Assembly: GCF_036967205.1 (NCBI RefSeq)
Contig: NZ_CP146022.1
Location: 2,542,001 to 2,606,000 of the forward strand
Origin: Streptomyces sp. Q6
GTDB lineage: Bacteria > Actinomycetota > Actinomycetes > Streptomycetales > Streptomycetaceae
Length of the DNA: 64,000 nucleotides
Direction of reading: 5' to 3'
Shown here in pieces: positions 21,077 to 58,918 of this stretch. The notes beneath the pieces were generated by a model, which was not told where the DNA came from, made no database searches, and saw nothing but the letters and a program-made list of their open reading frames with translations. The position numbers and the translations under genes were made by a program. Each line of letters starts with the position of its first letter. Within the stretch, counting starts at the first letter, position 1.

Positions 21077-21093
21077 GCTGACGCTACGTCAGA
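21077..21093. promoter_or_regulatory. 17-bp palindrome GCTGACGCTACGTCAGA
   Basis: Inverted CTGAC/GTCAG half-sites with a 5-bp centre, upstream of the MaoC operon. It is one of five similar sites found near CoA-metabolism genes in this window. Confidence 0.55.
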
Positions 21094-21189
21094 AACCGTG
21101 TCCGGTACGGGGACTGTGACATTTGTACTGCCGAGGTGCGGACATGCGCATCTGCCGGGCACCCCGCCCCGCTCCGTAGCGTCGTCCCC

Positions 21190-22122
21190 ATGACGACGAG
21201 GACATCGGACACCGCATCACCGGCCGTGCGCTTCACGGGGGCCGTCAGGACGTTCGGGGACGTACGCGCGGTCGACGGGCTCGACCTGGAGATCGCGCCC
21301 GGCGAGACGGTCGCCCTGCTCGGCCGCAACGGCGCGGGCAAGTCGACCGCGATCGCGCTGCTGCTCGGCCTGGACGAGCCGCAGGAGGGCGGCGTCGAGC
21401 TGTTCGGCACGGCGCCCGGCGACGCGGTGCGGCAGGGGCGGGTCGGCGCCATGCTCCAGGAGGGCCGGGCGGTGCCCTGGGTCACCGTCGCCGAGCTGGT
21501 CGGCTTCGTGGCCGGGCGGTACCCGGCGCCCATGGACGTGACGGAGGCGCTGCGGCTCGCGGGGATCGAGGAGCTCGCGGGCCGCAGGGTCGACAAGCTC
21601 TCCGGCGGCCAGACGCAGCGGGTGCGGTTCGCGGTGGCGCTGGCCGGCAACCCGGCGCTGATCGTGCTCGACGAGCCGACGGCCGCGCTCGACGTGGAGG
21701 CGCGGCACGCGTTCTGGGCGTCGATGCGGGCGTACGCGCGGCGCGGCCACACCGTGCTGTTCTCCACGCACTACCTGGAGGAGGCCGACGCCAACGCCGA
21801 CCGGATCGTGGTGATCGACCACGGCCGGGTCGTCGCCGACGGCAGCGGCGACGAGCTGCGCCGGGCGGGCGGCGGCAGCTCCGTCTCCTTCGACCTCGCG
21901 GGGCGCGGCACCCAGGATCTCGCCCTGCTGCCCGGCGTGCTGTCCGTGGAGGTGCGCGGCGACCGGGCGCGGCTGCGCAGCGCGGACCCGGACGCGACGG
22001 TGATGGCGCTGGCCGCGCTGGACGCCGTACGGAATCTGGAGGTCAGGGCGGCCTCCCTCGACGACGCCTTCATGGCGCTGACCGCGACCCCCGAGGACCT
22101 CGACCACCTGGAGCGTGTGTGA
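21190..22122 (+). CDS. ABC transporter ATP-binding protein
   Basis: A 310-residue ATPase. Walker A LLGRNGAGKSTAIALLLGL (near residue 44), Q-loop MLQEGRAVPW, signature LSGGQTQRVRFAVALAGNP, Walker B LIVLDEPTAALD and H-loop FSTHYLEEADA are intact. It is the NatA/DrrA-type partner of the permease that follows; its TGA overlaps the permease ATG (TGATG). With a kinase and response regulator downstream it forms a four-gene module of the kind used for lipid-stress or drug response, comparable in layout to yhfH/des or linear-peptide export systems. Confidence 0.92.
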   Translation: MTTRTSDTASPAVRFTGAVRTFGDVRAVDGLDLEIAPGETVALLGRNGAGKSTAIALLLGLDEPQEGGVELFGTAPGDAVRQGRVGAMLQEGRAVPWVTVAELVGFVAGRYPAPMDVTEALRLAGIEELAGRRVDKLSGGQTQRVRFAVALAGNPALIVLDEPTAALDVEARHAFWASMRAYARRGHTVLFSTHYLEEADANADRIVVIDHGRVVADGSGDELRRAGGGSSVSFDLAGRGTQDLALLPGVLSVEVRGDRARLRSADPDATVMALAALDAVRNLEVRAASLDDAFMALTATPEDLDHLERV

Positions 22123-22838
22123 TGTGGGACTACCTGTGGCTCGAAGTGAAGCGCACACTGCGCGACGGACGGTTCGTGCTCGGCACGGTCGCGATGCCGG
22201 TCATGATGTATCTCCTGTTCACCAACATCGGCGCGGACGAAGGGAGTTGGCAGACCGCCTCGATGGTCGGGATGGCCGCGTACGGGGCGCTCGGCGCGGC
22301 TCTGAACACGGCGGGCGGGGTCGCCGAGGACCGGGCGGTCGGCTGGCTGCGGCAGTTGCGGATCACGCCGATGACTCCGCGCGAGGGTGTCATCGGGCGG
22401 GCGCTGACCGGGGCGGTGACGGTGCTGCCCGCGATCCTCGCGGTGATGCTGGCGGGCGCGCTGGTCAACGGCGTACGGATGGACGCCTGGAAGTGGCCGG
22501 TGATCGCGGTGCTGCTGTGGCTGGGCTCGCTGCCCTTCACGCTGCTGGGCCTCGGCAACGGCTACCGGCTGACCTCGCAGGCCCTCGGCGGGATGAACAT
22601 GCTCTGCTACCTGGGGCTCGCGGTCCTCGGCGGCCTGTGGTTCCCGGTGCAGTTGTTCCCGGAGTGGCTGCGGCACGTCTCCGCGTTCACGCCGACCAAC
22701 CGGTTCGCGCAGCTCGGTACGGCGGTCGCCGACGGGCACGCGCCGTCGGCGGTGGCGCTGGCGGTCCTCACCGGCTGGCTGCTGGTGTTCGGTTCGTACG
22801 CTGTGGTCTCGTACCGCAGGGCCGCGCGCACCAGCTGA
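22122..22838 (+). CDS. ABC-2 type transporter permease
   Basis: 238 residues from the ATG overlapping the ATPase stop (a GTG one codon earlier is possible). About six membrane segments; the motifs MMYLLFTNIGAD, AEDRAVGWLRQLRITPM and GGLWFPVQLFPEWLRHVSAF are hallmarks of ABC-2 drug-exporter permeases. The substrate is unknown; the linked two-component system suggests an envelope-active compound or membrane-fluidity response. Confidence 0.92.
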   Translation: MWDYLWLEVKRTLRDGRFVLGTVAMPVMMYLLFTNIGADEGSWQTASMVGMAAYGALGAALNTAGGVAEDRAVGWLRQLRITPMTPREGVIGRALTGAVTVLPAILAVMLAGALVNGVRMDAWKWPVIAVLLWLGSLPFTLLGLGNGYRLTSQALGGMNMLCYLGLAVLGGLWFPVQLFPEWLRHVSAFTPTNRFAQLGTAVADGHAPSAVALAVLTGWLLVFGSYAVVSYRRAARTS

Positions 22839-22869
22839 GAACTGGTCCTTGGACAACGGGGGTTCGGAC

Positions 22870-24123
22870 ATGTCGATGCGGAACAGGGTGAGTCGCGGGG
22901 CGCGTGCGTGGCGGGACGCGCGGGCCGAGTGGAAGGCCGACCACGCGCGGGCGAAGGCGGCCCGCCGCGAGCACGGCAGGCCGGCCGAGGAACTGGGCCC
23001 GCCGCCCACCGGCTTCGCGCTGCTGCCGTGGCTCCTGATGGGCCTGGGCGCCGCCTCGAACCTGGTCCAGGGCAAGACCCCGCACCCGTGGGCGGGCGGC
23101 GCGGGCCTGCTCGTCTTCAACACCCTGTACGTGTATGTGGTGTTCAGGGCGTTCCACCGGCAGACGCGGCAGGCGCCGTCGACGCGGGCGGCGGTCGCCG
23201 CGATGACGCTGCTGACGTGCGCGCTCGCCGGCACGTACGGCGGGGCCTGGCTGGCGCTGTTCCCGCTGCTCGGGCTCGCCGTCGGCGCGGTGGCCCGCGG
23301 CCGGCACCTCGGCAGGGTCGGGCTCGGCCTGACCGTGCTCGCGGGGACCGTGGCCGGGCTGCGCGAGGGCTGGGACGCGGTGAGCGTCTCGTACGGCACG
23401 TTCCTGTCCACGATGGTGACGGCCGCGATCCTCTCGCTGTCCGAGACCGTACGGGAACTGCGGGACGCCCGCGAGGAGTTGGCCCGCCGGGCCGTCGAGC
23501 AGGAGCGGCTGCGGTTCTCCCGCGACCTGCACGATCTGCTCGGGCACACGCTGTCGGTGATCGTGGTGAAGTCGGAGGCGGCGCGGCGGCTCGCCCCGCG
23601 CAGCATGGACGCGGCCCTGGAGCAGGTGTCCGACATCGAGGCGGTCGGCCGGCAGGCCCTCACCGAGATCCGCGAGGCGGTCACCGGCTACCGCGAGGGC
23701 AGCCTCGCCACGGAACTCGACCGGGCGCGCTCGGCCCTGACGGCCGCCGCCGTCGAGCCGGTCGTACAGCTGTCGGGACCGCCGCTGTCGGCGCAAACGG
23801 AGGCGCTGCTCGGCTGGGTGGTGCGGGAGGCGGTGACCAATGTGGTGCGGCACAGCCGGGCCACCTCGTGCACGATCACCGTCGCGGGGACGGCGGAGCG
23901 GGTGCGGTTGCGGGTCTCGGACGACGGGGTCGGCGCGGGCGCGGCGCCGGGCGCGCCCGGGATCGGCGGCACGGGGCTGAAGGGACTCGCCGAGCGGCTC
24001 GCCACGGCGGGCGGTTCCCTGAAGGCGGAGCCCGGCGCGCGCGGCGGATTCACGGTGCGGGCCGAACTCCCCGTCGAGGAGCGGGAGTCGACGCCCGACG
24101 CCGCACTGACGGAGAGCGCCTGA
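22870..24123 (+). CDS. Sensor histidine kinase, NarL/DesK type
   Basis: 417 residues from the ATG with GGGGG six bases upstream. An N-terminal basic linker precedes about five membrane helices (residues 40-170). Then come a dimerisation helix with the phospho-acceptor, LRFSRDLHDLLGHTLSVIVV, the N-box REAVTNVVRHSRAT and the G-box GIGGTGLKGLAERLA. DesK-like architecture without an extracellular sensor domain implies intramembrane sensing, often of the neighbouring ABC transporter. It pairs with the response regulator 37 bp downstream. Confidence 0.92.
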   Translation: MSMRNRVSRGARAWRDARAEWKADHARAKAARREHGRPAEELGPPPTGFALLPWLLMGLGAASNLVQGKTPHPWAGGAGLLVFNTLYVYVVFRAFHRQTRQAPSTRAAVAAMTLLTCALAGTYGGAWLALFPLLGLAVGAVARGRHLGRVGLGLTVLAGTVAGLREGWDAVSVSYGTFLSTMVTAAILSLSETVRELRDAREELARRAVEQERLRFSRDLHDLLGHTLSVIVVKSEAARRLAPRSMDAALEQVSDIEAVGRQALTEIREAVTGYREGSLATELDRARSALTAAAVEPVVQLSGPPLSAQTEALLGWVVREAVTNVVRHSRATSCTITVAGTAERVRLRVSDDGVGAGAAPGAPGIGGTGLKGLAERLATAGGSLKAEPGARGGFTVRAELPVEERESTPDAALTESA

Positions 24124-24160
24124 GGCCCTGGGCGGGCCCCCTCCCCTTACCCTCTCCCCT

Positions 24161-24802: not shown

Positions 24803-24848
24803 TCGCCGCGGGACCGGCGACGGTGCCGGGGCCCGCTGCTCGAGCGCA

Positions 24849-26286: not shown

Positions 26287-26440
26287 GAACGTGATGGTCT
26301 CAGCCCGCGGGCGCCCCGTACATCAGGATTTGGGCCCATGGGCCGTGGTCCGCGCGGCATAGGCCGCCGGGCCTAGGGCCTGTCCGGGGGCGCCCGGAAA
26401 CTCGTTGCCGGACCGTCGCCGAAGGGGTCAGACTCCCCGG

Positions 26441-27238: not shown

Positions 27239-28432
27239 CTAGGCGTTCCGGCGCACCATCGTCACCACCGCCGCCCCGCCGAGTCCGATGTTGTGCGCGA
27301 GACCGACCCGGGCGCCGGCCACCTGCCTGGCTCCCGCCTCGCCCCTCAACTGCCACGTCAGTTCGGCGACCTGGGCGATACCGGTGGCGCCGAGCGGGTG
27401 GCCCTTGGAGATCAGTCCGCCGGACGGGTTCACGACCCAGCGGCCGCCGTACGTCGTCGCGCCGGACTCGACGAGTTTGCCCGACTCGCCCTCCCCGCAC
27501 AGGCCGAGCGCCTCGTACGTGAGCAGTTCGTTGATGGAGAAGCAGTCGTGGAGCTCGATGACGTCCACGTCCCGCGCGTCCAGGCCCGACGCCTCGTAGA
27601 CCTGGCGGGCCGCGTCCCGCGACATGGGCTGTCCGACGACGTCGACGCACGATCCGGAGGCGAAGGACTCCGCCGTGTCCGTGGTCATCGCCTGCGCCAC
27701 GATCTCGACCGCCTTCTCCCCCAGTCCCCGTTCCTCCACGAAGCGTTCGGAGACGACGACGGCCGCCGCGGCGCCGTCGGACGTCGGCGAGCACTGGAGC
27801 TTGGTGAGCGGTGTGTGGATGGTCTTCGCGGCGAGGATCTCGTCGACGGTGTACGCGTCCTGGAACTGGGCGTACGGGTTGTTCACCGAGTGCCGGTGGT
27901 TCTTGGCGCCGACCGCGGCGAGCTGTGCCTCGGTGGTGCCATACGTCTCCATGTGCTCGCGGGCCGCGTCGCCGAAGATCTGGGCGGTGGGCGGGGACAT
28001 CTCGAAGCCGTGGCGGGCGGCCATGATGCCGTAGTGGCGGGCGACCGGCGAGGTCCGGAAGTCGCCGCCGTCGGCGCCCCCGCCCAGCGCCCCGCGCTGC
28101 ATCTTCTCGAAGCCGAGCGCGAGGACGCAGTCGCTCAGGCCGCCCTCGACGAACTGCCGCGCCAGCATCAGCGCGGTCGACCCGGTGGCGCAGTTGTTGT
28201 TGACGTTGTAGACGGGGACGCCGGTCAACCCCAGTTCGTAGACCGCGCGTTGACCGGCCGTGGAGGCCTGGAAGCAGTAGCCGACGGGGACCTGCTGGAC
28301 GTCCTCGTAGGCGATCCCCGCGTCGGCGAGCGCCGCGCTTCCCGCCTGCTTGACCATGTCCCAGTACTGCCAGTCCCGCGTCTCGGGCTTCTCGAACCTG
28401 GTCATGCCGACGCCGACGATGTACGACTTCAT
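27239..28432 (-). CDS. SCP-x type thiolase / lipid-transfer protein
   Basis: A 397-residue thiolase of the sterol-carrier-protein-x group. The N-terminal [19 protein letters not shown], active-site region [58 protein letters not shown] and [20 protein letters not shown] closely follow animal SCP-x and actinobacterial Ltp proteins, which cleave 3-ketoacyl-CoA derived from branched sterol side chains. No SCP2 domain is fused. A 23-bp palindrome lies 19 bp upstream of the ATG. Steroid or branched acyl-CoA degradation is the inferred pathway. Confidence 0.9.
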
Positions 28433-28450: not shown

Positions 28451-28473
28451 GTATCTGATGACCCGTCAGATAC
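28451..28473. promoter_or_regulatory. Palindrome GTATCTGA-N7-TCAGATAC containing a 17-bp family site
   Basis: Perfect 8-bp arms flank a 7-bp centre. The inner 17 bp TCTGATGACCCGTCAGA belongs to the family CTGAC-N5-NTCAG seen at four other CoA-gene promoters here. It lies 19 bp upstream of the thiolase ATG, a position suitable for repression. Confidence 0.7.
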
Positions 28474-34170: not shown

Positions 34171-36348
34171 TCAGTCCCTGGGCAGCCCCAGGATCCGTTC
34201 CGCCACCACGTTGAGCTGCACCTGTGTCGTCCCTCCGGCGATCGTCAGGCACCGCGACAGCAGGAAGCCGTGGAGGGCGCGCTCCCCCGGTCCCTCCCTC
34301 AACGCACCGGCGGGGCCGAGGAGTTCGAGGGCCAGTTCCGCGACCTTCTGCTGGTGCGGCGTCTGGACCAGTTTGCGGACCGAGGCGCCCGCGCCGGGCT
34401 CCTCGCCCGCGACCTGCCGCGTCGTCGTGCGCAGACCGACGCAGGCGAGCGCGTGCGCCTCCGCCGCGAGCGCGCCGATCCGCGCCCGGTACGCGCCGTC
34501 GAGGTCGCCCGCGCGTGCCAGGAGCGCCTCCAGACCCGTGTCGAAGGTCAACTGGTCGGCCATGTGGACGCGTTCGTTGCCGAGCGTGTGGCGGGCGACG
34601 CGCCAGCCGTCGTCGACCTCGCCGACCACCGCGTCGGCGGGCAGCAGGACGTCGTCGAAGTAGACCTCGTTGAAGAGGGAGTCGCCGGTGATCTCGCGCA
34701 GGGGGCGGATGTCGATGCCGTCGGTGTGCTTCATGTCGACGAGGAAGTAGGTCAGACCCTTGTGCTTGGGCGCGTCCGGGTTGGTGCGGGCCAGCAGGAT
34801 GCCGTGGTCGGCCCATTGCGCGGCGCTCGTCCACACCTTCTGCCCGTTGATCCGCCACCGCCCGTCGGGCATCCGCTCCGCGCGCGTGCGCAGCGAGGCG
34901 AGGTCGGAGCCCGCGCCGGGTTCCGAGAAGAGCTGGCACCACAGGACGTCGCCGCGCAGGGTCGCCGGGAGGTGCCGCTCACGCTGCGCCTCGGTGCCGT
35001 ACGTCAGAAGGGAGGGGACGACCCAGGTCGCGATGCCGAGGTCGCTCACCTTCACGCCCGCCGCCCTCAACTCCTCCTGGACGGCGAGCTGTTGGACGGG
35101 CCCGGCGCCCAGTCCGTACGGCGGCGGCAGGTGCGGGGCCGCGTATCCGGTGGGTGCGAGGGCGCGGCGGGCAGCCGCCGGGTCGAGGCCGCGGGCACCC
35201 TCGACGACGCCGCGGGCGCTCTCCCGGTACGCGTCGGCCTCCGCCGGCAGATCGAGCCGCAGTTCGCGGCGGGCCCCGGACTCCGCGAGCCGCACGGCCC
35301 GCAGCCGGTGCGCGTCCCCGGCGCCGAGCAGTTGCCGGGCGACGACGGCCCGGCGCAGATAGAGGTGGGCGTCGTGCTCCCAGGTGAAGCCGATGCCGCC
35401 GAGGATCTGCACGCAGTCCTTGGCGCAGCTGTACGCGGCGTCGAGCGCGGCCCCGGCGGCGAGCGCGGCGACCAGGCCGCGCACGTCGGCGGCGGTCCCC
35501 TCCTCCAGCGCCCGCGCCGCGTCCCACACCAGGGCGCAGGACTGCTCGACCCGTACGAGCATGTCGGCGCAGAGGTGCTTGACGCCCTGGAACCGGCCGA
35601 TGGGCCGCCCGAACTGCTCGCGCACCTTGGCGTGCTCGGCGGCCGTGCCGAGCGCCCAGGCGGCGTTCCCGCACGCGTCGGCCGCGAGCAGCACGGCCGC
35701 GAGGTCCCGCACGAGCGCGGAGTCGACGTCGAGGACGCGGGCGGCGGGGACGACGGCGCCGGTCGCGACGACCTCGGCGGTGGGCCGGGTCGGGTCGGCG
35801 CTCTCGTGGGCCCGGACGGTGAGGCCCGGGGTGCCGGCGTCGACGGCGAGCCACAGGTCGCCGGAGTCGCCCCGCGCCGCGAGGACGAGCAGGTCGGCGT
35901 CGGCCCCGGTGAGGACCGGTGGCGCGGTCCCGTCGAGCACGATCCCGTCGGGCCCGGCGACCGCGCCGATCCCGCCGGGTCCGAGCGCGACGGCGCCGAT
36001 CCGGCCGCCCTCGGCGAGGCTCCGCGCCAGGTCGCCCCGGCCGGCCCGGCGCAGCAGCTCGGCCGCGAGCACGCTGCCCAGGAACGGTCCGGGCAGCGCC
36101 GCACGCCCCGCCTCCTCGGCGACCACGGCGAGATCGAGCAGGGTCCCGCCCCCGCCTCCGTACGCCTCGGGGAGGTGCACGCCGAGCAGCCCCTGCCCGG
36201 CGGCGCCGTCCCAGTAGAGGGGGCGGTGGCCCGGGGCGGGCGGGGCGTCGAGCAGTTTGCGCACCTCTTCGGGCGGTACGGCGCGCGCGATCCAGCCGCG
36301 CACGGATTCCGCGAGTTCCCGCTGTTCCTGCGTGATGGCGATGCCCAT
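34171..36348 (-). CDS. Double-domain acyl-CoA dehydrogenase, FadE34-like
   Basis: A 725-residue protein made of two fused acyl-CoA dehydrogenase halves. The N-terminal half (1-350) has GQGLLGVHLPEAYGGGGGTL, EQFGRPIGRFQGVKHLCADM and CVQILGGIGFTWEHDAHLYL. The C-terminal half (about 360-725) has WCQLFSEPGAGSDLASLRTR, RINGQKVWTSAAQWADHGIL and IAGGTTQVQLNVVAERILGL. This matches mycobacterial FadE34 (Rv3573c), a single-chain equivalent of the two-subunit ACADs used on steroid side chains and a KstR target. A KstR-type box lies 12 bp upstream of the ATG. Substrate inferred. Confidence 0.9.
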   Translation of the reverse strand: MGIAITQEQRELAESVRGWIARAVPPEEVRKLLDAPPAPGHRPLYWDGAAGQGLLGVHLPEAYGGGGGTLLDLAVVAEEAGRAALPGPFLGSVLAAELLRRAGRGDLARSLAEGGRIGAVALGPGGIGAVAGPDGIVLDGTAPPVLTGADADLLVLAARGDSGDLWLAVDAGTPGLTVRAHESADPTRPTAEVVATGAVVPAARVLDVDSALVRDLAAVLLAADACGNAAWALGTAAEHAKVREQFGRPIGRFQGVKHLCADMLVRVEQSCALVWDAARALEEGTAADVRGLVAALAAGAALDAAYSCAKDCVQILGGIGFTWEHDAHLYLRRAVVARQLLGAGDAHRLRAVRLAESGARRELRLDLPAEADAYRESARGVVEGARGLDPAAARRALAPTGYAAPHLPPPYGLGAGPVQQLAVQEELRAAGVKVSDLGIATWVVPSLLTYGTEAQRERHLPATLRGDVLWCQLFSEPGAGSDLASLRTRAERMPDGRWRINGQKVWTSAAQWADHGILLARTNPDAPKHKGLTYFLVDMKHTDGIDIRPLREITGDSLFNEVYFDDVLLPADAVVGEVDDGWRVARHTLGNERVHMADQLTFDTGLEALLARAGDLDGAYRARIGALAAEAHALACVGLRTTTRQVAGEEPGAGASVRKLVQTPHQQKVAELALELLGPAGALREGPGERALHGFLLSRCLTIAGGTTQVQLNVVAERILGLPRD

Positions 36349-36359
36349 GGCGCGCACGG

Positions 36360-36373
36360 TAGAACACGTTCCA
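36360..36373. promoter_or_regulatory. KstR-type operator TAGAACACGTTCCA
   Basis: Exact fit to TNNAACNNGTTNNA, 12 bp upstream of the FadE34-like start codon. Confidence 0.75.
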
Positions 36374-36391: not shown

Positions 36392-36408
36392 TCTGACACT
36401 GGGTCAGA
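36392..36408. promoter_or_regulatory. 17-bp palindrome TCTGACACTGGGTCAGA
   Basis: Perfect 6-bp arms with a 5-bp centre, 44 bp upstream of the FadE34-like gene and next to the KstR-type box. Member of the 17-bp site family. Confidence 0.65.
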
Positions 36409-38567: not shown

Positions 38568-41500
38568 TCAGGGCGTTCGTGGCGGGGGTGGTCCGCAGTC
38601 GGGACCAGCGGTCGCGAGGGCCAGCACCCGCTGGGCCGATTCCATCGGTGGCAGCCCGGCAGAGCCGTGGGCCAGTGCGGCGATCAGCTCCAGCACCTCC
38701 GGGTCGTCGGAACAGTGCTCCGCGACAGCGTGCACCGCCGACTCCAGGACGGTCTCATCCGTCTCACCGCGCACGGCGTCCAGCACCAGGGCGCGAACAC
38801 CCGGATCGCCCCACCATCGGTCGGCCAGCATCTGCAGAGCCGTGCCGCGCAGGTCCAGCGCGCCCTGCCGTACCAGCGCCAGGAAGAGCGGCAGTGAGTC
38901 CTCGTGCCGCCGCCAGTACCGGAGAGAGCAGAGGAAGTCCCGGTCCACGTACGAGAACAGTTCCTCGCTGTGCAGTTCACGTACCCGTTCCTCAGCGACG
39001 GCCCGCACCTCCGCGTCGCCCGGCCAGTGCTCGACCAGCAGCCGCAACGCGAGGGCCCGAGTGGCCGGATCGGTCTCCACTCGGGGCATGTCCATGAGCA
39101 GGGCCCGCACCTCCGTGGAGCCCGGCCAGTGGCGCACCAGTGCGCGCAGCGCCGCCTCGCGCACGTCCAGGTCACCCTCGGTGGCCGCCGAGTCGATCAG
39201 CAGCCGGTACACGTCCTCGCCCTGCGGCCATCGTTCGGCCACCAGTCCCAGCGTGTCCACGTGCTCCCCCGCACGCGCCAGGTCGAAGGCCAGTGCGCGG
39301 ACCTCGGGGTCCGCCGGCCATCTATCGGCCAGCGCACGCACCGCGGTGCCGCGCAGGTTCCGGTCGGCATCGGTCCGCGCCACCTCGAAGAGCTCGTTCC
39401 GGTCGGTGGCGTCCTTGCGCCACAGGTCTTCGAGGACCTCCCGCGCCACGTAGTGCAAGGTCGCGTCATTGTCACCGGTGGCAAGGGTCCGGAGCAGCTG
39501 ACGCGTCGGCCCGTGATCCGGCCGTAGTCGGGCGAGCAAGCGTGTCGCGGACTCCCGTACCGGCCAGAGCGCGTCGCCCTGTACCCATCCGGCGAACAGG
39601 TCGTGGATCTCCGGATCCTGTCCCCAGTGGTCCATGAGCCCGCGCATGGCGACCTGCGGCACGGTGTAGTCGTCGTCGAGCGACGCCCACGCGATGAGGA
39701 GCGTCCGGACGTCGACGTCACCGGGCCGATGCCGGGCGAGCAGCCGCAGGATTTCGCCCGGCATGTCCGCACGGGTCTCGCCTCTCACCCTCGGGCCGAT
39801 GCGGGGCATGTGCGGACCGAGGGCGGCGGCCCAGCGTTCGACGACCGCCTCGTGGTCCACGTCGTCCGCGAACCGTACGTTCGAGCGGCGGAGGATTTCA
39901 CGCAGCAGGAATCGGACGCCGTCGCCGGCCGGCCGGGCCTCGGCCAGTGCCCACAGGGCCACCCACCGCACTCTCGCCGAGACCTGTTCCCGGGCCACCG
40001 CGGAGAACACCGCAAGCGCGCCCGTGTCGCCCCGCCAGTTTCGTGCCAGTCCCCCCAGCGCGGTCCGCCGCACCTCCTCGTCCTCTCCCTCCCGGGCCAG
40101 GTCACGGAGCAGCCCGTACACCTCGCTGTCGCTCGGCCAGCCCTCGGCCAGCGCCTCGAGGAAGAGCACCCGGTCGAACGGGCTGTACGCGTCGCGCGTG
40201 AAGCGGATCAGCTCCTCCCGGGACGGCCGGAGCAGGCAGACGATGCGCGGTGTGTCCGTGCTCGGGGAGAACTGGCCACGCGTGCGGAACCAGGCGAGGA
40301 ATGCCTCCCTGCCCACCCAGTAGGGACCGAACGACGCCAGTGCCGAGAAGACCGGGGTCAACTCGACGGGCACCCACGGAGTGTTGAGCACATCCGTCAG
40401 GGCCTTGACGGCCCGCTCGCTCTGACTGTTCAGCAGGCCGATCTTCGGGACCTCCGCGAGCGCCCGGATGGCGACCTCCAGCAGAGCGGTCGTGCCGAGG
40501 TCGCCCCGGCCGTCGTGGAGATCGAGGAGACGGTCGATCGCTGCCGCCGCGTCCGACGGCTGCAACTGGCCGATGAGCAGCAGGAGTACCTCGTGCCAGG
40601 CCGGGTCGTGCGCATGCGGGGCGATCACCTGATCCAGGAGCTCCTGCGGCGTCCACGCCCGGCCCCGCGTATAGCGCTGGTAGATGTCGGCGGCCAGGTG
40701 CTCCAGGAAGGCGCGGTGGACGAAACCGTAGACCTCGCTGCCGTACCGGGCGAGGATGAAGTTGCGTTCACGCAGCTGCGAGACCAGCGCCCGCGCGCCC
40801 GTCCTGGCGGGGCCGAGTGGCAGCCCGTACTGCTCCAGCTGGGTGCGCAGCAGTTCTTCGAGGTCGTCTCCGTGGATGTGGTTCCCGGCGATACCGTGCG
40901 TGCCCGCCTGCATGGCGTGCGCCAGCATCATCAGCACCTCTTGGCGGTCGAGGCCGTCGAGGACGTCCTTGATGGCGGGCGGAAGATCGGCTTCCAGGTG
41001 TTTGGCCTGCTGGTCCCACTGCGCCGTGAGAACGGTCACGGCCTGCCGGTACACACCGATACGGTCCTTGGGCAGGGGCTGGCGGCGGCCGACGATCGCC
41101 AGAATGGTCAACAGCAGCGGGTTTCCGGCGAGTTCACGGATCGGCCGGGAGTCGCGCACCGCGTCCTGGAGGCGCTGGGCGAGCAGGGCCGCCTTCTCGG
41201 TGTCCGTGGGCGCCGACAGCGTGTACCAGCGCTCGGTGAACGTGGCGATCTGCTCCGTGTCGAGGTCCTGAAGCATGTAGTGCGTGAAGTCCGCGCCGTC
41301 GAAGACGTGGCGCTTGTACCCGATGACACGCGACGTCACCACGATGCGAGCCTGCGGCCAGCGCGCGGCGAAGGCGGCGATCTGTTCCGAGGCGGCCTGG
41401 CGCACCTTGGGGTCGAAGACCTCGTCGAGACCGTCGAAGACGACCACGGCTCGGCCCGTGTGCAGCAGATGACGCAGCACGGACGGTGGCACGCACAGGC

Positions 41501-42413
41501 CGAGCTGGTCCTGACGGTGCGCGAGGAAGTCCTCGTACGTCCGCTGGTGCCACTGCGGTTCGGCGTACTGCCTGAGTTCGACGATGACGCCCACCCGGTC
41601 GGCGAGCGCCGGTGGGACGTCTGCGCGTGACCCGCTGCCCGCGAGTGTGAGGGCCAGGTACTTCGCCAGTGTCGACTTGCCGGCTCCGGGGTCCCCGAGG
41701 AGCACGTGCTTACGGGTGTCCTTCTCGCCCAGCACCTGGAGCACGGGTCGTGTCGGGCGCTGCTCGTACGCGCCCCGCAGCTCCTTGAGTGCGTCCAGGG
41801 TGCCGCTCGGCAGGTGGTCGGACTCCGGCAGCTCCCCCGATTCGACCAGCCTGCGGACCAGTTCGCGCGGTAGCTCCACGGGCGGCGGGTCCGCCCGGAC
41901 GCCGGGCTCGACGAAGACCTCCCTGAGCCGGATGTCGGGGTGGCGGCCCTGGTCGTCGAGCGGCAGCAGCACCTCCAGGTCCAGGTGGCCCCAGGTCTCC
42001 CGGGCCCGCTCGGCGTACGCGGTGAGGGCGGCCTCGATGTCGTGCGCCGTCGCGTCGGATACGCCGCCCGCCTCCAAGAACCTGACCAGCGCGGTGTGTT
42101 CGGCCTTCCAGACGGTCAGGTCGAAGAGGGCGGGTGAGGCAGGGGACTTCGTGGCGGCGGCGTGCGCCCGGCAGGCCGCGACGAACGAGGCGACCACGTC
42201 CCAGTCGGGCGCCTTCACGCCCTTCCCCGACAGCAGCCGGCTCACCGTGTTCGCCGTCAGGGCCCGGCCGCCCGGCGCCTTGCCCGCCATGCGTCCGGAG
42301 GCCGCCACGAGGTCGGCGTTCTTCGCGCCCGCCGCGTCTCGCAGGTCACGCAAGCGGTGCGTGAACCCGCGGCGCGCGACCACGTCCGGACCGTCAGCAT
42401 CATGCGTCGTCAT
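38568..42413 (-). CDS. HTH-NACHT-HEAT STAND NTPase (NLR-like)
   Basis: A 1281-residue protein. Residues 15-80 form an XRE-like HTH (FTHRLRDLRDAAGAKNADLV, then LTANTVSRLLSGKG). The NACHT NTPase has Walker A LLGDPGAGKSTLAKYL (about 239-254), the extended acidic Walker B AVVVFDGLDEVFD (about 322-334), sensor RIVVTSRVIGYKR, and a winged-helix region with LAGNPLLLTILAIVGRR. From about 690 to the end there are HEAT-like repeats of about 31-60 residues marked by W-P-x-D-x-EVR-x-L (for example WPADPEVRALA, WPGDAEVRAVA, WWGDPGVRALV). Bacterial NACHT proteins of this kind can act in phage defence. The N-terminal HTH suggests DNA binding or an adaptor rather than a nuclease effector. Divergent small membrane protein next door. 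Confidence 0.9.
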   Translation of the reverse strand: MTTHDADGPDVVARRGFTHRLRDLRDAAGAKNADLVAASGRMAGKAPGGRALTANTVSRLLSGKGVKAPDWDVVASFVAACRAHAAATKSPASPALFDLTVWKAEHTALVRFLEAGGVSDATAHDIEAALTAYAERARETWGHLDLEVLLPLDDQGRHPDIRLREVFVEPGVRADPPPVELPRELVRRLVESGELPESDHLPSGTLDALKELRGAYEQRPTRPVLQVLGEKDTRKHVLLGDPGAGKSTLAKYLALTLAGSGSRADVPPALADRVGVIVELRQYAEPQWHQRTYEDFLAHRQDQLGLCVPPSVLRHLLHTGRAVVVFDGLDEVFDPKVRQAASEQIAAFAARWPQARIVVTSRVIGYKRHVFDGADFTHYMLQDLDTEQIATFTERWYTLSAPTDTEKAALLAQRLQDAVRDSRPIRELAGNPLLLTILAIVGRRQPLPKDRIGVYRQAVTVLTAQWDQQAKHLEADLPPAIKDVLDGLDRQEVLMMLAHAMQAGTHGIAGNHIHGDDLEELLRTQLEQYGLPLGPARTGARALVSQLRERNFILARYGSEVYGFVHRAFLEHLAADIYQRYTRGRAWTPQELLDQVIAPHAHDPAWHEVLLLLIGQLQPSDAAAAIDRLLDLHDGRGDLGTTALLEVAIRALAEVPKIGLLNSQSERAVKALTDVLNTPWVPVELTPVFSALASFGPYWVGREAFLAWFRTRGQFSPSTDTPRIVCLLRPSREELIRFTRDAYSPFDRVLFLEALAEGWPSDSEVYGLLRDLAREGEDEEVRRTALGGLARNWRGDTGALAVFSAVAREQVSARVRWVALWALAEARPAGDGVRFLLREILRRSNVRFADDVDHEAVVERWAAALGPHMPRIGPRVRGETRADMPGEILRLLARHRPGDVDVRTLLIAWASLDDDYTVPQVAMRGLMDHWGQDPEIHDLFAGWVQGDALWPVRESATRLLARLRPDHGPTRQLLRTLATGDNDATLHYVAREVLEDLWRKDATDRNELFEVARTDADRNLRGTAVRALADRWPADPEVRALAFDLARAGEHVDTLGLVAERWPQGEDVYRLLIDSAATEGDLDVREAALRALVRHWPGSTEVRALLMDMPRVETDPATRALALRLLVEHWPGDAEVRAVAEERVRELHSEELFSYVDRDFLCSLRYWRRHEDSLPLFLALVRQGALDLRGTALQMLADRWWGDPGVRALVLDAVRGETDETVLESAVHAVAEHCSDDPEVLELIAALAHGSAGLPPMESAQRVLALATAGPDCGPPPPRTP

Positions 42414-51047: not shown

Positions 51048-51064
51048 ACTGACGGGGCATCAGC
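51048..51064. promoter_or_regulatory. 17-bp site ACTGACGGGGCATCAGC
   Basis: Matches the CTGAC-N5-NTCAG family; the core CTGACGGGGCATCAG differs by one base from the thiolase-promoter site read on its other strand. It lies 13 bp upstream of the F420-oxidoreductase start. Confidence 0.6.
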
Positions 51065-51077: not shown

Positions 51078-52088
51078 ATGCGGCTCGGAATCGCACTCGG
51101 CTACTGGGGGCGCGGACCCCATCCCGATCACCTCCAACTCGTACGGGACGCGGAGGAGTTGGGGTACGACTCCGTCTGGACCTCCGAGTCCTGGGGCAGC
51201 GACGCGTTCACGCCGCTGACCTGGTTCGCCGCGCACACCAGCCGGATCCGGCTCGGCACCGCCATCGCGCAGATGGCCGCCCGCTCCCCCACCACGACGG
51301 CGATGCACGCCCTCACCCTCGACCACCTCTCCGGCGGCCGCGTGCTGCTCGGCCTCGGGCTGTCCGGGCCGCAGGTCGTGGAGGGCTGGTACGGGCGGCC
51401 GTTCCCGACGTCGCCGCTCACGGCCACGCGCGAGTACGTCGATGTCGTACGGCAGGTGCTGCGGCGCGAAGGGCCCGTCGAGGTCGACGGGCGGTTCCAC
51501 GCGCACCCGTACCGCGGCGACGACGGCACCGGGCTCGGCAAGGCCCTCAAGCCCATCACACACCCGCTCCGCGCCGACCTGCCGATCCTGCTCGGGGCGG
51601 AGGGGCCGAAGAACATCGCGCAGACGACGCGGATCGCGGACGGCTGGCTGCCGCTGTACTGGTCGCCCACCCGCACGGACGTCTACGAGGCGTCCCTCAG
51701 CGACCTGCGCGACGATTTCATGATCGCGCCCATGGCGCGGGCGACGGTGTGCGACGACGTCGGCGAGGGGCTGCTGCCCGTCAAGGCGATGCTCGGCTTC
51801 TACATCGGCGGCATGGGGCACGCCAGCCGCAACTTCCACGCCGATCTCATGGCGCGGATGGGATACGAGGAGGAGGCCCGGCGGATCCAGGAGCTGTTCG
51901 CCGAGGGGCGGCGCGAGGAGGCGGTGCTCGCCGTGCCGGACGCGTTCGCCGACGAGATCTCGCTCGTCGGGCCGCGTCAGCGCATCGCGGAGCGGCTCGA
52001 ACTGTGGCGCAAGGGCCCGGTGACGGACCTGCTGGTCCTGTCACCGGACCCGCACACGCTCCGCGTCCTGGCCGAGCTGAACTCCTGA
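51078..52088 (+). CDS. LLM-class F420-dependent oxidoreductase, Rv3520c-like
   Basis: A 336-residue luciferase-like TIM-barrel protein. MRLGIALGYWGRGPHPDHLQ, WTSESWGSDAFTPLTWFAAH, GRVLLGLGLSGPQVVEGWYG and GTGLGKALKPITHPLRADLP are strongly like mycobacterial Rv3520c, a KstR-regulon member. Coenzyme F420 serves as hydride carrier. Both the homology and the 17-bp site just upstream tie it to the steroid/CoA genes elsewhere in the window, although its physical neighbours are unrelated. Confidence 0.9.
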   Translation: MRLGIALGYWGRGPHPDHLQLVRDAEELGYDSVWTSESWGSDAFTPLTWFAAHTSRIRLGTAIAQMAARSPTTTAMHALTLDHLSGGRVLLGLGLSGPQVVEGWYGRPFPTSPLTATREYVDVVRQVLRREGPVEVDGRFHAHPYRGDDGTGLGKALKPITHPLRADLPILLGAEGPKNIAQTTRIADGWLPLYWSPTRTDVYEASLSDLRDDFMIAPMARATVCDDVGEGLLPVKAMLGFYIGGMGHASRNFHADLMARMGYEEEARRIQELFAEGRREEAVLAVPDAFADEISLVGPRQRIAERLELWRKGPVTDLLVLSPDPHTLRVLAELNS

Positions 52089-52100
52089 TCCGCTGAACCG

Positions 52101-52652: not shown

Positions 52653-52820
52653 CACGGGGACCTCCGGGGCGGGTGGGGCGGCTGCACTTCTGGCAGCCTC
52701 ACCCGGGCCCCGCCGCTGCGCCACCCGGGCGAGCCCGTCCGTGTCTCCCGAGCGGCCTCTCCCCAGGCCCCCCTTGGGATTCCTGCGTTTCCCGGACGGA
52801 ATCCGGGACACCCGGACCGT

Positions 52821-53117: not shown

Positions 53118-53174
53118 CCACCCAGAGGCTCGGCGACCCGTCTCTCCCGCAACTGAGCGGCACCGCGCGTGCGA

Positions 53175-54988: not shown

Positions 54989-56322
54989 GTGGCCCTGCTT
55001 TCCTGTGGGGTCTCTTCGGTCACAACGTCGGTCGTGGGACGGGGCGCCGGGCGTCCGGCGCTCTCGATCGACTCGCGGTAAAGGTCGGCGGTGCCCTGGG
55101 CCGCGCGTGCCCACGTGAAGCGCTCCAGGACGCGGACGCGGCCCGCCGCGCCGAGTCTGACCCGCAGCGCCGGGTCGCCGAGGAGCCTGTTCAGTCCGGC
55201 GGCGAGGGCGCCCGCGTCCGCCGTCGGTACGGCGATGCAGGTCTCGCCGTCCGGCCCGGCGACCTCGGGGATCGCGCCGCCGGTGGTGGCGACCAGCGGG
55301 GTGCCGGTGGCCATGGCCTCGGCGGCGGGCAGCGAGAAGCCCTCGTAGAGGGAGGGCACGCAGGCGACCTGCGCGGAGCGGACGAGGTCGACGAGCTCCT
55401 GGTCGCTGATGCCCTTGACGAACCGGACGGCGCCTTCGAGCCCGTACCGCTCGATGGCCTGGGCGACGGGGCCGTCCTCGGCGCGCTTGCCGACGACGAC
55501 GAGGTGCGCCTCGGGGTGTTCGGCGCGCACCTTGGCGAGCGCTTCGACGAGAAAGACGAGGCCCTTGAGGGGGACGTCGGCACTGGAGGTCGTGACGATG
55601 CGGCCCGGCACCTCGGGCACCGCCGGATTCGGCGAGAAGAGGTCGGTGTCGGCGCCGATGTGCACGACGCGGATCCGGCCGGGACGTACGCCGAGGTGCT
55701 CGACGATCTCGTCGCGGGAGGTGCCGGAGACGGTGAGCACGGACGGCAGGCGGCGCGCGACGCGCTTCTGCATGCGGGTGAACGCGTACCAGCGGCGCTT
55801 GGACATCCGCTGCCGCCAGTTCTCCGCGGCGTCGAGCTCAAGCTGCCGGTCGACGGTGATGGGGTGGTGGATGGTGGAGACGAGCGGGGCGCCCAGCGCG
55901 GCGGGGCCGCCGAGGAGCCCGTAGCCGAGCGTCTGGTTGTCGTGGACGACGTCGAACTCGCCGCGGCGCTCGCGCAGATGGCGGCGGGCACGCAGCGAGA
56001 AGGTCAGCGGTTCGGGGAAGCCGCCGGTCCACATGGTGCCGACCTCCAGGGCGTCGACCCAGTCCCGGTACTCGTCGCGCTTCGGCGTGCGGAAGGGGTC
56101 GGGGCTGCGGTACAGGTCGAGGCTGGGCAGCTCGGTGAGGGAGAGACCGGCGAGGTCGTCGCCCTCGTCGAGGACGGGGTAGGGCTGGGAGCCGATGACC
56201 TCGACGCGGTGGCCGAGGCGGGCGAGCTCACGGGAGAGATGGCGGACATACACCCCCTGACCACCGCAGAACGGGTTGCCCTTGTACGTGAGGAGAGCGA
56301 TGCGCAACGACTCCGCGGTCAC
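54982..56322 (-). CDS. GT4-family glycosyltransferase (GT-B fold)
   Basis: A 446-residue protein. The N-terminal acceptor domain begins LRIALLTYKGNPFCGGQGVY-VRHLSRELARLGH; the donor domain has ADVPLKGLVFLVEALAKV, GKRAEDGPVAQAIERYGLEG and the nucleotide-sugar motif PSLYEGFSLPAAEAMATGTP. It transfers a sugar with retention at the cytoplasmic face. First gene of the operon; its 5' region is shared with the divergent KstR-like regulator and contains a KstR-type box. Confidence 0.92.
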   Translation of the reverse strand: MTAESLRIALLTYKGNPFCGGQGVYVRHLSRELARLGHRVEVIGSQPYPVLDEGDDLAGLSLTELPSLDLYRSPDPFRTPKRDEYRDWVDALEVGTMWTGGFPEPLTFSLRARRHLRERRGEFDVVHDNQTLGYGLLGGPAALGAPLVSTIHHPITVDRQLELDAAENWRQRMSKRRWYAFTRMQKRVARRLPSVLTVSGTSRDEIVEHLGVRPGRIRVVHIGADTDLFSPNPAVPEVPGRIVTTSSADVPLKGLVFLVEALAKVRAEHPEAHLVVVGKRAEDGPVAQAIERYGLEGAVRFVKGISDQELVDLVRSAQVACVPSLYEGFSLPAAEAMATGTPLVATTGGAIPEVAGPDGETCIAVPTADAGALAAGLNRLLGDPALRVRLGAAGRVRVLERFTWARAAQGTADLYRESIESAGRPAPRPTTDVVTEETPQESRATC

Positions 56323-56375
56323 TCCAGGCCACCCTTCTCCCTACTTGCCCGTGGACACTACTTGGGGCGCTAATC

Positions 56376-56389
56376 TAGAACAAGTTTCA
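56376..56389. promoter_or_regulatory. KstR-type operator TAGAACAAGTTTCA
   Basis: Fits TNNAACNNGTTNNA, in the gap between the divergent glycosyltransferase (start 56322) and KstR-like (start 56500) genes. It suggests autoregulation and possible control of the glycosyltransferase operon. Confidence 0.7.
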
Positions 56390-56499
56390 GACTTGATCGT
56401 TCAATGAGCATCGAATCTACCGGCAGGTAGCCAGGCTGTGACGAGCGGATCAGGTGATTCACGCCACGAGCCGGGACGACGGGACACGGAAGCGGACAG

Positions 56500-57138
56500 A
56501 TGACAGCTCCGGACGCGAGAAGCTCTGCACAAGGGGGCGCCGCGGCGCTCACGGAGCGGCAGGAGGCCCGGCGGCGCCGGATCCTGCACGCGAGCGCCCA
56601 GCTGGCGGCGCGCGGCGGCTTCGACGCCGTGCAGATGCGCGAGGTCGCCGAGTCGTCGCAGGTCGCGCTCGGCACGCTGTACCGCTACTTCCCGAGCAAG
56701 GTCCATCTCCTCGTCGCCACGATGCAGGACCAGCTCCAGCACATGCACACCACCGTCCGTAAGCGTCCCCCGTCGGGCGCGGCGCCGTCCGAGCGGGTCG
56801 CCGAGACGCTGATGCGCGCCTTCCGGGCGCTCCAGCGCGAGCCGCATCTGGCCGACGCGATGGTCCGCGCGCTGACCTTCGCGGACCGCAGCGTCAGCCC
56901 CGAGGTCGATCAGGTCTCCCGGCAGACGACGGCGATCATCCTGGACGCGATGGAGCTCGACGACCCGACCCCCGAGCAGCTCTCGGCGGTCCGGGTCATC
57001 GAGCACACCTGGCACTCGGCGCTCATCACCTGGCTGTCGGGGCGCGCCTCGATCGCCCAGGTGAAGATCGACATCGAGACGGTGTGCAAGCTGATCGACC
57101 TGACAGCGAGCCCTTCCGGGGGCACCTCCCCGCGCTAG
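56500..57138 (+). CDS. kstR: TetR-family regulator, KstR-like
   Basis: 212 residues. The N-terminal HTH is EARRRRILHASAQLAARGGF-DAVQMREVAES, then SQVALGTLYRYFPSKVHLLV; this block is nearly the same as in mycobacterial KstR (GGYEAVQMRAVADRADVAVG, GTLYRYFPSKVHLLV). The C-terminal ligand domain has LTFADRSVSPEVDQV and VIEHTWHSALITWLSGRASI, again KstR-like. KstR represses sterol catabolism genes and is released by a 3-oxo-sterenoyl-CoA. Matching operators are upstream of its own gene and of other catabolic operons in this window. The end carries a partial GGGGGCACCTCCCC repeat. Confidence 0.88.
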   Translation: MTAPDARSSAQGGAAALTERQEARRRRILHASAQLAARGGFDAVQMREVAESSQVALGTLYRYFPSKVHLLVATMQDQLQHMHTTVRKRPPSGAAPSERVAETLMRAFRALQREPHLADAMVRALTFADRSVSPEVDQVSRQTTAIILDAMELDDPTPEQLSAVRVIEHTWHSALITWLSGRASIAQVKIDIETVCKLIDLTASPSGGTSPR

Positions 57139-57144
57139 AGCCGT

Positions 57145-57158
57145 CCCCTGACCAGGGG
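57145..57158. terminator. Small hairpin between convergent regulator and ferredoxin genes
   Basis: CCCCTG-AC-CAGGGG in the 28-bp gap between the two stops; a weak bidirectional terminator candidate. Confidence 0.4.
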
Positions 57159-57166
57159 TTCGGCGA

Positions 57167-57400
57167 TCAGTCCTCCGGCGGGAAGACGACCTCCCCCGTG
57201 TCGGCCAGCGCCAGCGTGATCGCCTCCACCGGGCACCCCTCCGCCGCCGCGAGCACCTGCTCGTTCGCGTCGACGTCCGGTTCGGTCGGGCGGGACTGAC
57301 GGGCGGTGTCGAGGCGGAACGAGCCGGGCGCGTGGTTCACGCACATGCCCGAGCCGATGCACACGCTCCGGTCGACCTCCACATGCCACCGGTCTCCCAT
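57167..57400 (-). CDS. 3Fe-4S ferredoxin, cytochrome P450 partner type
   Basis: A 77-residue ferredoxin. The cluster ligands are C-I-G-S-G-M-C in VDRSVCIGSGMCVNHAPGSF, where the second Cys is replaced, leaving a three-Cys site, and the Cys-Pro in AAAEGCPVEAITL. This is the FdxD/SubB type that feeds electrons to P450s. In mycobacteria FdxD is in the KstR regulon next to Hsd4A. It starts 5 bp after the aldehyde dehydrogenase stop; no P450 is in the window. Confidence 0.92.
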   Translation of the reverse strand: MGDRWHVEVDRSVCIGSGMCVNHAPGSFRLDTARQSRPTEPDVDANEQVLAAAEGCPVEAITLALADTGEVVFPPED

Positions 57401-57405
57401 ACGCG

Positions 57406-58863
57406 TCAGCCCTCCCAGCCGGCGGGCAGATGGATCATCTTGTGCTCCAGGTAGGCGCTGTAGCCCTCGGGCCCGAACTCCCGGCCCACGCCGCTGTTCT
57501 TGTAGCCGCCGAAGGGGCCGAGCATGTCGAGGCTGAAGGTGTTCACGTTGTAGGTGCCGGTCCGCACCTGCCGCGCGATGTCGATGCCGTGGGCGACGTC
57601 GGCGGTCCACACGCTGCCGCTCAGGCCGTAGTCGGAGTCGTTGGCGATCTTCACGGCCTCGGTCTCGTCGCCGTACGGGAGCAGGCAGATGACCGGGCCG
57701 AAGATCTCCTCGCGGGCGATGCGCATGCCGTTGTGGACGTCACCGAAGAGGGTCGGTTCGACGTACGCGCCCTGCTCGTACCCCTGGGGCACGCCGCCGC
57801 CGGTGAGGACCTTGGCGCCCTCCTCCTGGCCGATGCGGATGTAGTCGAGGTTGCGCCGCTGCTGGCGCTTGGCGACGAGCGGGCCGACCTGGGTGGCGGG
57901 GTCGAGCGGGTCGCCGACCACCAGGGCGGAGGCGGCGGCCGTGAAGGCCTCGGCGAACTCGTCGTAGCGGGAGCGCGGCAGGAGGATGCGGGTCTGGGCG
58001 ACGCAGGCCTGGCCGTTGTTCATCCAGGCGGCGGGGACGACCCCGGCGACGGTCGATTCGAGGTCCGCGTCCGGCAGGACCACGGCGGCGGACTTGCCGC
58101 CCAGTTCCAGGGTGACGCGGGTGAGGTGGCGGGCGGCCACCTCCATGACGCGCTTGCCGGCCGCGACCGAGCCGGTGAAGGAGATCTTGTCGACGCCCGG
58201 GTGCCCGACCAGGTACTCGCTGACCTCGCGGTCGGCGGGCAGGATGGAGAGCACCCCCTCCGGCAGCCCGGCCTCCCGCGCGATCTCGCCCAGCAGGTAG
58301 GCGTCGAGCGGGGATTCGGGCGACGGCTTGAGGACGACGGTGCAGCCGGTGAGCAGCGCGGGCGCGAGCTTGGCGGCGGCCACGAACTGCGGCACGTTCC
58401 ACGGGACCACGGCCGCGACGACCCCGACCGGCTCGCGGCGCACCAGGAGTTTGCCGAGGGCTCCGTCGCGCGTCTCCTCGTACGTGAAGGCGCGCGCGAC
58501 GTTGATCGCGGAGTCCCAGACCATCATCGCCCCGAGCGCCTGGGCGAGGACGGACCAGGAGTAGGGGGAGCCGTTCTGCTGGGAGATGAGCCGGGCGATC
58601 TCCTCGTGGCGGACGGCGATGGCGTCCTTGATGCGGGTGACGACGGCGATCCGCTCGTCGAGGGTCATCCGCGGCCAGGGTCCCTCGTCGAAGGCCCGGC
58701 GCGCGGCGGCGACGGCCCGGTCGACGTCGGCGGGCGCGGCGTGCGGCACCCGCCCGAAGACCTCGCCGGTGTGCGGCGAGACGACCTCGATGACGTCCTT
58801 GCCGAGGGGATCGGTCAACTCCCCGCCGATGAACAGCTGTCCGTGTTCCACGAGCTCGGTCAT
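57406..58863 (-). CDS. NAD(P)+-dependent aldehyde dehydrogenase
   Basis: A 485-residue ALDH. Cofactor and active-site motifs are VVAAVVPWNVPQFVAAAKLA, VLKPSPESPLDAYLLGEIA, FTGSVAAGKRVMEVAA, the catalytic Glu in LELGGKSAAVV, Cys in NNGQACVAQTRILL and EEIFGPVICLLPYGDE. It oxidises an aldehyde to the acid, possibly a steroid side-chain aldehyde formed by P450/ADH action. Start at ATG 58863. Upstream are a 17-bp site and an 18-bp palindrome. Operon with the ferredoxin. Confidence 0.94.
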   Translation of the reverse strand: MTELVEHGQLFIGGELTDPLGKDVIEVVSPHTGEVFGRVPHAAPADVDRAVAAARRAFDEGPWPRMTLDERIAVVTRIKDAIAVRHEEIARLISQQNGSPYSWSVLAQALGAMMVWDSAINVARAFTYEETRDGALGKLLVRREPVGVVAAVVPWNVPQFVAAAKLAPALLTGCTVVLKPSPESPLDAYLLGEIAREAGLPEGVLSILPADREVSEYLVGHPGVDKISFTGSVAAGKRVMEVAARHLTRVTLELGGKSAAVVLPDADLESTVAGVVPAAWMNNGQACVAQTRILLPRSRYDEFAEAFTAAASALVVGDPLDPATQVGPLVAKRQQRRNLDYIRIGQEEGAKVLTGGGVPQGYEQGAYVEPTLFGDVHNGMRIAREEIFGPVICLLPYGDETEAVKIANDSDYGLSGSVWTADVAHGIDIARQVRTGTYNVNTFSLDMLGPFGGYKNSGVGREFGPEGYSAYLEHKMIHLPAGWEG

Positions 58864-58901
58864 GGCGACTTCCGCTTCCGTGAGGCTTTCGGCGTACGGT
58901 T

Positions 58902-58918
58902 TCTGACGGTGTTTCAGA
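58902..58918. promoter_or_regulatory. 17-bp palindrome TCTGACGGTGTTTCAGA
   Basis: Member of the 17-bp site family, 38 bp upstream of the aldehyde dehydrogenase ATG. Confidence 0.6.

Follow-up and report, generated by a model that had tools for sequence, protein, structure and literature searches.

The 64,000-bp stretch of the Streptomyces sp. Q6 genome analysed here (contig NZ_CP146022.1, positions 2,542,001 to 2,606,000; referred to below as the window) carries 17-bp palindromes sharing CTGA-N7-TCAG in front of acyl-CoA and steroid catabolic genes. From sequence comparisons, we consider it quite probable that the operator, CTGAC-N5-GTCAG, is bound by a TetR-family protein with the Pfam domain TetR_C_38 (gene at C1:3737894-3738541, outside the window), which would repress the genes behind it. 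The motif is in excess over controls, lies in promoters, adjoins recurrent classes of target gene, co-occurs and co-localises with the TetR_C_38 gene and is conserved at some of its promoters. KstR is the TetR repressor of cholesterol catabolism and has the box TnnAACnnGTTnnA. A sequence-only reading of the window had proposed a second regulator apart from KstR, and this is well supported by the genome-wide excess, the promoter location, the KstR-box neighbours at the CYP125 and FadE-fusion promoters and the way in which the motif tracks the TetR_C_38 protein. That reading knew of no named regulator for the site; a candidate protein can now be proposed, itself still unnamed.

The five 17-mers on which the proposal was based share CTGA-N7-TCAG with identical spacing and are all present where they had been placed: GCTGACGCTACGTCAGA at 21077..21093, TCTGATGACCCGTCAGA at 28454..28470, TCTGACACTGGGTCAGA at 36392..36408, ACTGACGGGGCATCAGC at 51048..51064 and the weaker TCTGACGGTGTTTCAGA at 58902..58918 (no strand assigned), the last departing from the CTGAY-N5-RTCAG form. 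The distance between their centres and a called gene start is 22 to 203 bp. There are 7 exact matches to CTGA-N7-TCAG in the window against 0.58 expected from 100 dinucleotide shuffles, of which the largest gave 3 and none gave 7. The remaining two matches, at 19721 and 54189, fall within called genes and are probably chance hits.

The excess holds across the whole genome (8.95 Mb, 2 contigs) when the pattern read backwards is used as control. CTGA-N7-TCAG occurs 148 times against 21, TCTGA-N7-TCAGA 15 times against 0, CTGAY-N5-RTCAG 88 times against 6, and the last pattern with A/T flanks 20 times against 1. The DNA surrounding 87 of the 88 CTGAY-N5-RTCAG sites was examined (the 88th is identical in sequence to the tRNA-Lys arm of L103), with genes called by a purpose-made codon-usage script; 43 sites precede a gene start by ≤350 bp, 30 lie within genes and 14 between genes with no near start, indicating that operators are mixed with chance hits in this set. 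A/T-rich flanks surround the 43 promoter sites, whose consensus is TAT-CTGACGG-N-CCGTCAG-ATA. By the same 350-bp definition promoter DNA makes up 11% of the sampled DNA (815 kb), yet 17 of the 20 A/T-flanked sites are in promoters (one being a tRNA-Arg arm), with 2 intergenic and 1 intragenic; the genome scan by which the sequence-only reading could have failed, with the motif no more frequent in promoters of CoA genes than at random, therefore left it standing. Versions with other outer bases, GTGAC-N5-GTCAC, ATGAC-N5-GTCAT and TTGAC-N5-GTCAA, have 0 copies each in the 815 kb, and the outer C-G pair therefore matters. Fifteen alternative spacers have 0 to 2 copies each in this sample and the true spacer 47, a figure inflated by the choice of loci for the motif.

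Two tRNA genes, tRNA-Arg(ACG) (L057:3970-4043) and tRNA-Lys(CTT) (L103:3973-4048), fit the palindrome through their anticodon arms and count as background; identical letters are seen again in many genomes of the class sample, a trap for motif scans. Some promoters carry paired operators, at L064:9180/9207 (27 bp), L065:9960/9984 (24 bp), L066:7038/7116 (78 bp) and L067:12465/12525 (60 bp). The site at L026:4001 (chromosome, before a DUF4331 gene) and that at L092:4001 (second contig) are the same with identical flanks and belong to a duplicated stretch.

The genes directly behind the sites encode acyl-CoA dehydrogenases, thiolases, a lipid-transfer protein, CoA ligases, an enoyl-CoA hydratase and a ChsH2-type zinc-ribbon protein, together with amidohydrolases, luciferase-like (LLM) oxidoreductases, a short-chain dehydrogenase/reductase (SDR), a flavin reductase, a nitronate-monooxygenase-like enzyme and an enzyme resembling flavin-containing monooxygenases (FMO-like). 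One site serves a divergent pair, a steroid 3-ketoacyl-CoA thiolase (NF005889, 692 bits, cut-off 515) and a P450, which we take to be FadA5 and CYP125 on the basis of synteny and sequence, the family libraries identifying the latter only as a P450; the CYP125 operator is at G000:C1:2611779 (G000 is the own genome). With tRNA set aside, 16 A/T-flanked promoter sites remain, and we read 13 of these as neighbours of catabolic genes for acyl-CoA or redox reactions, including FadA5 and CYP125, but not the other three (L053, L070 and L072). The neighbours at L053:4001 (MreB-like) and L070:4001 (NlpC/P60) have no obvious catabolic role, and that of L072 has no family match. Sites with fewer A/T flanks also adjoin PorA, Dak1 and DUF4331 genes. 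The 46 genes downstream of intergenic sites in the first batch of loci include 4 acyl-CoA dehydrogenases, 3 luciferase-like proteins, 3 thiolases, 2 AMP-ligases and 2 amidohydrolases. The 25 families listed for 90 control genes include none of these five, so that each accounts for at most 2 of the 90 (used from 120 sampled out of 153; one long protein, at 38571-42383 of the window, and the last of the list were left out). As a correction to the sequence-only reading, the regulon extends beyond the steroid genes present in the window.

The candidate is a single-copy protein that matches PF19352 (TetR_C_38) with 244 bits over 135/135 positions and has an N-terminal TetR_N helix-turn-helix (HTH; PF00440, 26.5 bits, cut-off 24). 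Alignment of 18 sequences of its family shows 29 invariant columns, mostly in the HTH region. One copy of TetR_C_38 is present in 39 of 41 genomes (own included), and the two without it have 2 sites each against 0, one of each being the tRNA-Arg arm. It is found once per genome in 25 and in 31 same-genus genomes searched (own in both sets), and the protein is 87-93% identical in 23 of 24 other same-genus genomes. The best named matches are in Streptomyces sp. PsTaAH-137 (96% identity) and NBC_01016 (95%), and all 80 returned loci are from Streptomyces.

The operator also co-localises with the TetR_C_38 genes themselves. The start codon of the candidate lies within CTGACGGCATGACAG, an operator with one wrong base, which with small spacer changes is kept in 25/25 same-genus loci (own included) and 4/5 loci of family f3, its core being present in 80/80 named Streptomyces loci. 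Across six families, 15 of 21 TetR_C_38 promoters hold an operator with at most one mismatch (one perfect), whereas 1496 permuted palindromes gave a mean of 0.26 and a maximum of 4; the set of 21 leaves out L173 and L180, which are near-duplicates, and L182, which does not truly belong to the family. Around these genes we counted 35 operators in 464 kb (79 loci, the own genome and G013 each entered twice), whereas two reversed-arm controls gave 0 each, and 50 of the 80 named Streptomyces loci have a perfect site near the gene, with 68 sites against 3 for two reversed-arm controls together. Perfect operators are found ≤1 kb from the TetR_C_38 gene in f3, f14 and f16 loci and in part of f18. In five f16 loci, the gene stands beside a divergent SDR-like/enoyl-CoA-hydratase-like pair with the operator between, and in the f14 locus beside an SDR gene with the operator in front. 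The hydratase of L165 belongs to NCBIfam PRK07938 and the SDR of L164 to PRK07856 (families checked for these two loci only), which presumably correspond to EchA20 and IpdF.

The association extends over the class. In 296 genomes (≥90% completeness requested), one search counted the A/T-flanked motif and another TetR_C_38, with cut-offs of E ≤ 1e-9 for the protein and an excess of ≥8 over control for the motif. The excess is found in 34 of the 296, and TetR_C_38 is present in 31 of these 34 against 22 of the 262 others (Fisher 2e-24). When the own genus is left aside, the excess is seen in 10 of 22 carriers and 3 of 243 non-carriers (p 4e-10), and a threshold-free rank test gives p 1.6e-10. 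The cleanest contrast is within family f16, where five carriers have 8-15 sites and three non-carriers 0-3. Family f15 is extreme, with 54, 57, 73, 83 and 220 A/T-flanked sites in genomes of 4.3-5.5 Mb; its loci L170-L174 (genomes G110, G084, G051, G069 and G097) encode a shortened TetR_C_38 protein, and the predicted regulon is unusually large. In G258, the TetR_C_38 match (L182) reaches 24 bits only, despite 11 motif sites against 0 in the control.

At individual promoters, conservation is strongest for CYP125. All 28 readable loci of 30 (own included; L334 and L335, at contig edges, were left out) have the operator, in rows selected by having the palindrome arms, and 26 of the 28 also have a KstR-like box. 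Measured from the start codon in the own genome, the KstR-like box starts at -64 and the operator at -34, positions that fit repression close to the transcription start. CYP125 promoters of family f6 have KstR-like boxes in 24 of 30 and the operator in 0 of 30, and a strong TetR_C_38 match is found in 1 of 27 f6 genomes of the class sample (G065); the protein was checked in part of the genomes that supplied the f6 CYP125 loci. G065 carries TetR_C_38, yet its CYP125 promoter (L348) has no operator. The FadE-fusion promoter (site 36392) has the operator in all 10 same-genus loci (own included; 9 exact, 1 with one mismatch), and a KstR-like box in all 20 loci of the genus and f3; L297 enters as an exact case, its called start being internal and its site lying further upstream. 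Of the 25 near same-genus genomes (own included), 21 have a match to CYP125 itself, a frequency that contrasts with the reported rarity of steroid degradation in Streptomyces, the cholesterol pathway having been reported in one of more than 50 (PMC4810484).

The window also encodes a KstR ortholog (56500..57138, + strand), which is not the proposed binder of the 17-bp sites. The protein matches NCBIfam NF033703 with 198 bits (E 8e-59), under the curated cut-off of 280 but by far its best match; from this and its own box at 56376 we assign it as a KstR ortholog, not a certified equivalog. KstR-type boxes (no strand assigned) lie at 20999..21012 (TAGAACCTGTTCCA), 36360..36373 (TAGAACACGTTCCA), 56376..56389 (TAGAACAAGTTTCA, upstream of the KstR ortholog) and 59026..59039 (TGAAACAAGTTCTA). 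As had been noticed earlier, three of the five sites stand beside such boxes, at 64 bp (21077), 18 bp (36392) and 107 bp (58902), so that two different repressor sites share promoters; sites 28454 and 51048 have no KstR box nearby. No TnnAACnnGTTnnA box was found at a 17-bp site itself, the window boxes being neighbours of the three sites. At 11 operator loci outside the window, the strict KstR pattern finds a box in L022 only, and relaxing it at one end adds the CYP125 promoter (L050/L306).

This proximity, and the presence of both kinds of site in steroid promoters, could suggest that the 17-bp sequences are extra KstR sites of relaxed sequence. We consider this very improbable, given the canonical box that the KstR ortholog has before its own gene, the f6 CYP125 promoters with their KstR-like boxes and no operator, and the few boxes at the other operator loci even with the relaxed pattern; KstR was rejected as the binder on these grounds. 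The developmental regulator BldD has the box TNAC-N5-GTNA, which tolerates other outer bases, and the inner spacing TGAC-N5-GTCA is identical. There is, nevertheless, scarcely any likelihood that the sites belong to BldD, which was rejected on the outer base: versions with outer G, A or T are absent from the 815 kb, and most of the clear targets are catabolic. Least probable of all is that the excess arises from structural RNAs, terminators or chance palindromes. Two tRNA genes do match, 30 of the 87 sites are intragenic and some GC-flanked intergenic ones are hairpin-like, but the A/T-flanked sites fall overwhelmingly in the small fraction of the sample that is promoter DNA, and the readable CYP125 promoters all hold the site while its centre and flanks differ (in rows selected by having the arms).

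A more serious alternative, though still an unlikely one, is that the operator is real and is bound by another regulator co-inherited with the TetR_C_38 gene. Co-occurrence is a correlation, 3 of the 34 motif-rich genomes have no strong TetR_C_38 match, and in the own genome the nearest perfect site is 2.4 kb from the candidate gene and serves a FadE/thiolase pair. Against a co-inherited regulator are the near-perfect operators in the TetR_C_38 promoters of six families and the perfect ones that accompany the gene at ≤1 kb in f3, f14 and f16 loci and some of f18. The own genome has 132 TetR_N matches, and none of those checked (two below cut-off were omitted) has a perfect site, taken from the CTGAY-N5-RTCAG set and 58902, ≤2 kb upstream. 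The candidate being among the matches checked, this last result also weighs against TetR_C_38 as the binder, as do a number of further points. The family was chosen for its nearness to sites and was the sole regulator family in the 296-genome test, in which the cut-offs were set after the data had been seen and members of a family are not independent, so that the p-values are too good. Low counts are common among carriers, 22 of 53 having an excess below 8. The 22 comprise 10 of the 31 own-genus carriers, with 1 to 7 sites, all 9 carriers of f18 (3-7), and G050, G057 and G065 (3, 2 and 2). G032 carries TetR_C_38 yet has 6 TCTGA-type sites against 2. G258 (11 against 0), G174 and G261 (9 against 0 each) are motif-rich without a strong match. 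Six of the 21 TetR_C_38 promoters (L129, L172, L174, L178, L179 and L181) fall short of this, every site having more than one mismatch. The genomes of L178 and L179 have 2 sites each, but those of L172 and L174, where the promoter has two mismatches, are site-rich members of f15, so the link is not strict. Among the 80 named Streptomyces loci, 30 lack a perfect site near the gene, including 17 of the 49 that are full-length. As for the sites, 30 of the 87 are within genes and 14 intergenic with no start within 350 bp; the FadE-fusion operator is absent in 10/10 f3 loci, and of the 19 ortholog promoters that could be read (own included; L268, L275 and the paralog L285 excluded), just 2 hold site 28454.

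With TetR_C_38 as the preferred binder, the following mechanism can be proposed. The protein would bind CTGAC-N5-GTCAG, in its full form about TATCTGACGG-N-CCGTCAGATA, near the transcription start and would most likely repress acyl-CoA and steroid catabolic genes, and it may weakly repress its own gene through the imperfect operator. TetR-family regulators act as dimers on palindromic operators and are relieved by a ligand, and autoregulation is frequent among them though not universal. Binding of an acyl-CoA-type intermediate would most likely release it from the operator. In part of the steroid promoters, it would sit beside KstR and both would have to leave, most likely a two-key lock.

In the window, site 21077 lies between the genes of a MaoC/MFE-2-type hydratase (20061..20915, - strand), a predicted target, and an ATP-binding cassette (ABC) transporter (+). 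Site 28454 is ~21 bp upstream of the gene of a lipid-transfer (thiolase-like) protein (27239..28432, -; NCBIfam NF006102, 632 bits, above cut-off), also a predicted target, in the gap between it and the preceding co-directional FadE-type gene; the same 17-mer is found again at G000:C1:3767037. Upstream of the genes of a fused acyl-CoA dehydrogenase (-) and a major facilitator superfamily (MFS) transporter (+) is site 36392, whose predicted target, at 34171..36357 (-), is a protein of 728 residues with two acyl-CoA-dehydrogenase-like halves in one frame. Site 51048 directly precedes the predicted target gene of an LLM oxidoreductase (51078..52088, +), and site 58902 separates the genes of an aldehyde dehydrogenase (57406..58863, -), a predicted target, and a metallo-beta-lactamase (MBL)-fold hydrolase of the Strvi_7410 family (59113..60162, +; NCBIfam NF053820, 681 bits, above cut-off), a possible one.

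The candidate and KstR have in common that both are TetR-family proteins with a palindromic operator, steroid acyl-CoA genes and shared promoters. The candidate differs in its HTH (26% identity over 46 residues), its operator and its wider list of targets, and has no match to NF033703 at E ≤ 0.001. The KstR2 regulon comprises the C/D-ring genes and has the box AnCAAGnnCTTGnT. A likeness to KstR2 is seen in the f14 and f16 loci, where the TetR_C_38 gene stands beside an SDR and/or enoyl-CoA hydratase gene with operators between; the operator is nevertheless different, and the window has no KstR2-type box. KstR and KstR2 are named as the two repressors of the cholesterol pathway in PMC9782250. 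The present results supply a regulator conserved across same-genus genomes with its probable operator and list of targets, put forward a TetR_C_38 protein as the candidate, and predict that KstR is not the sole gate on steroid breakdown outside the mycobacteria, which is relevant to steroid biotechnology and to acyl-CoA precursor supply in antibiotic producers. We would give even chances to the broader idea that TetR_C_38 is a master regulator of acyl-CoA/steroid catabolism, both in Streptomyces and in several further families of actinobacteria, with tens to more than 200 operators per genome, layered with KstR as a two-key lock and replacing KstR2 in some lineages.

Among the open-licence papers listed, none was recognised as describing this operator and none mentions PF19352, which is no proof of absence. 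SCO3201 was considered as a match and rejected, its site being TGGCAGATTCTGCCA (PMC7324645). By sequence profile, the nearest solved structures are those of EthR (44-45 bits over profile positions 20-176 or more), a distant TetR relative. The spacing of the sites also fits T-N11-A, the form of LysR-type sites. AccR, PccD and BkaR are also TetR repressors of (short-chain) acyl-CoA metabolism genes in actinomycetes, AccR in Streptomyces, but their operator differs; the AccR motif, GTTAA-N6-TTAAC (PMC10933834), is not matched by the letters of the 17-bp sites, and PccD and BkaR appear as relatives of AccR in PMC11596240. SAV151 of S. avermitilis, compared here by its operator, has the sites GAACTGACACTCTAGCTTGTCAGTTC and TCTGACATGGTGTCGTGTCAGA (PMC10933834, Table 2), with the same half-sites CTGAC/GTCAG but a spacer of 10 instead of 5, an arrangement found twice in the 815 kb sampled. 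Set beside these systems, the sites described here form a new regulon under a known type of regulator, TetR, with a testable candidate.

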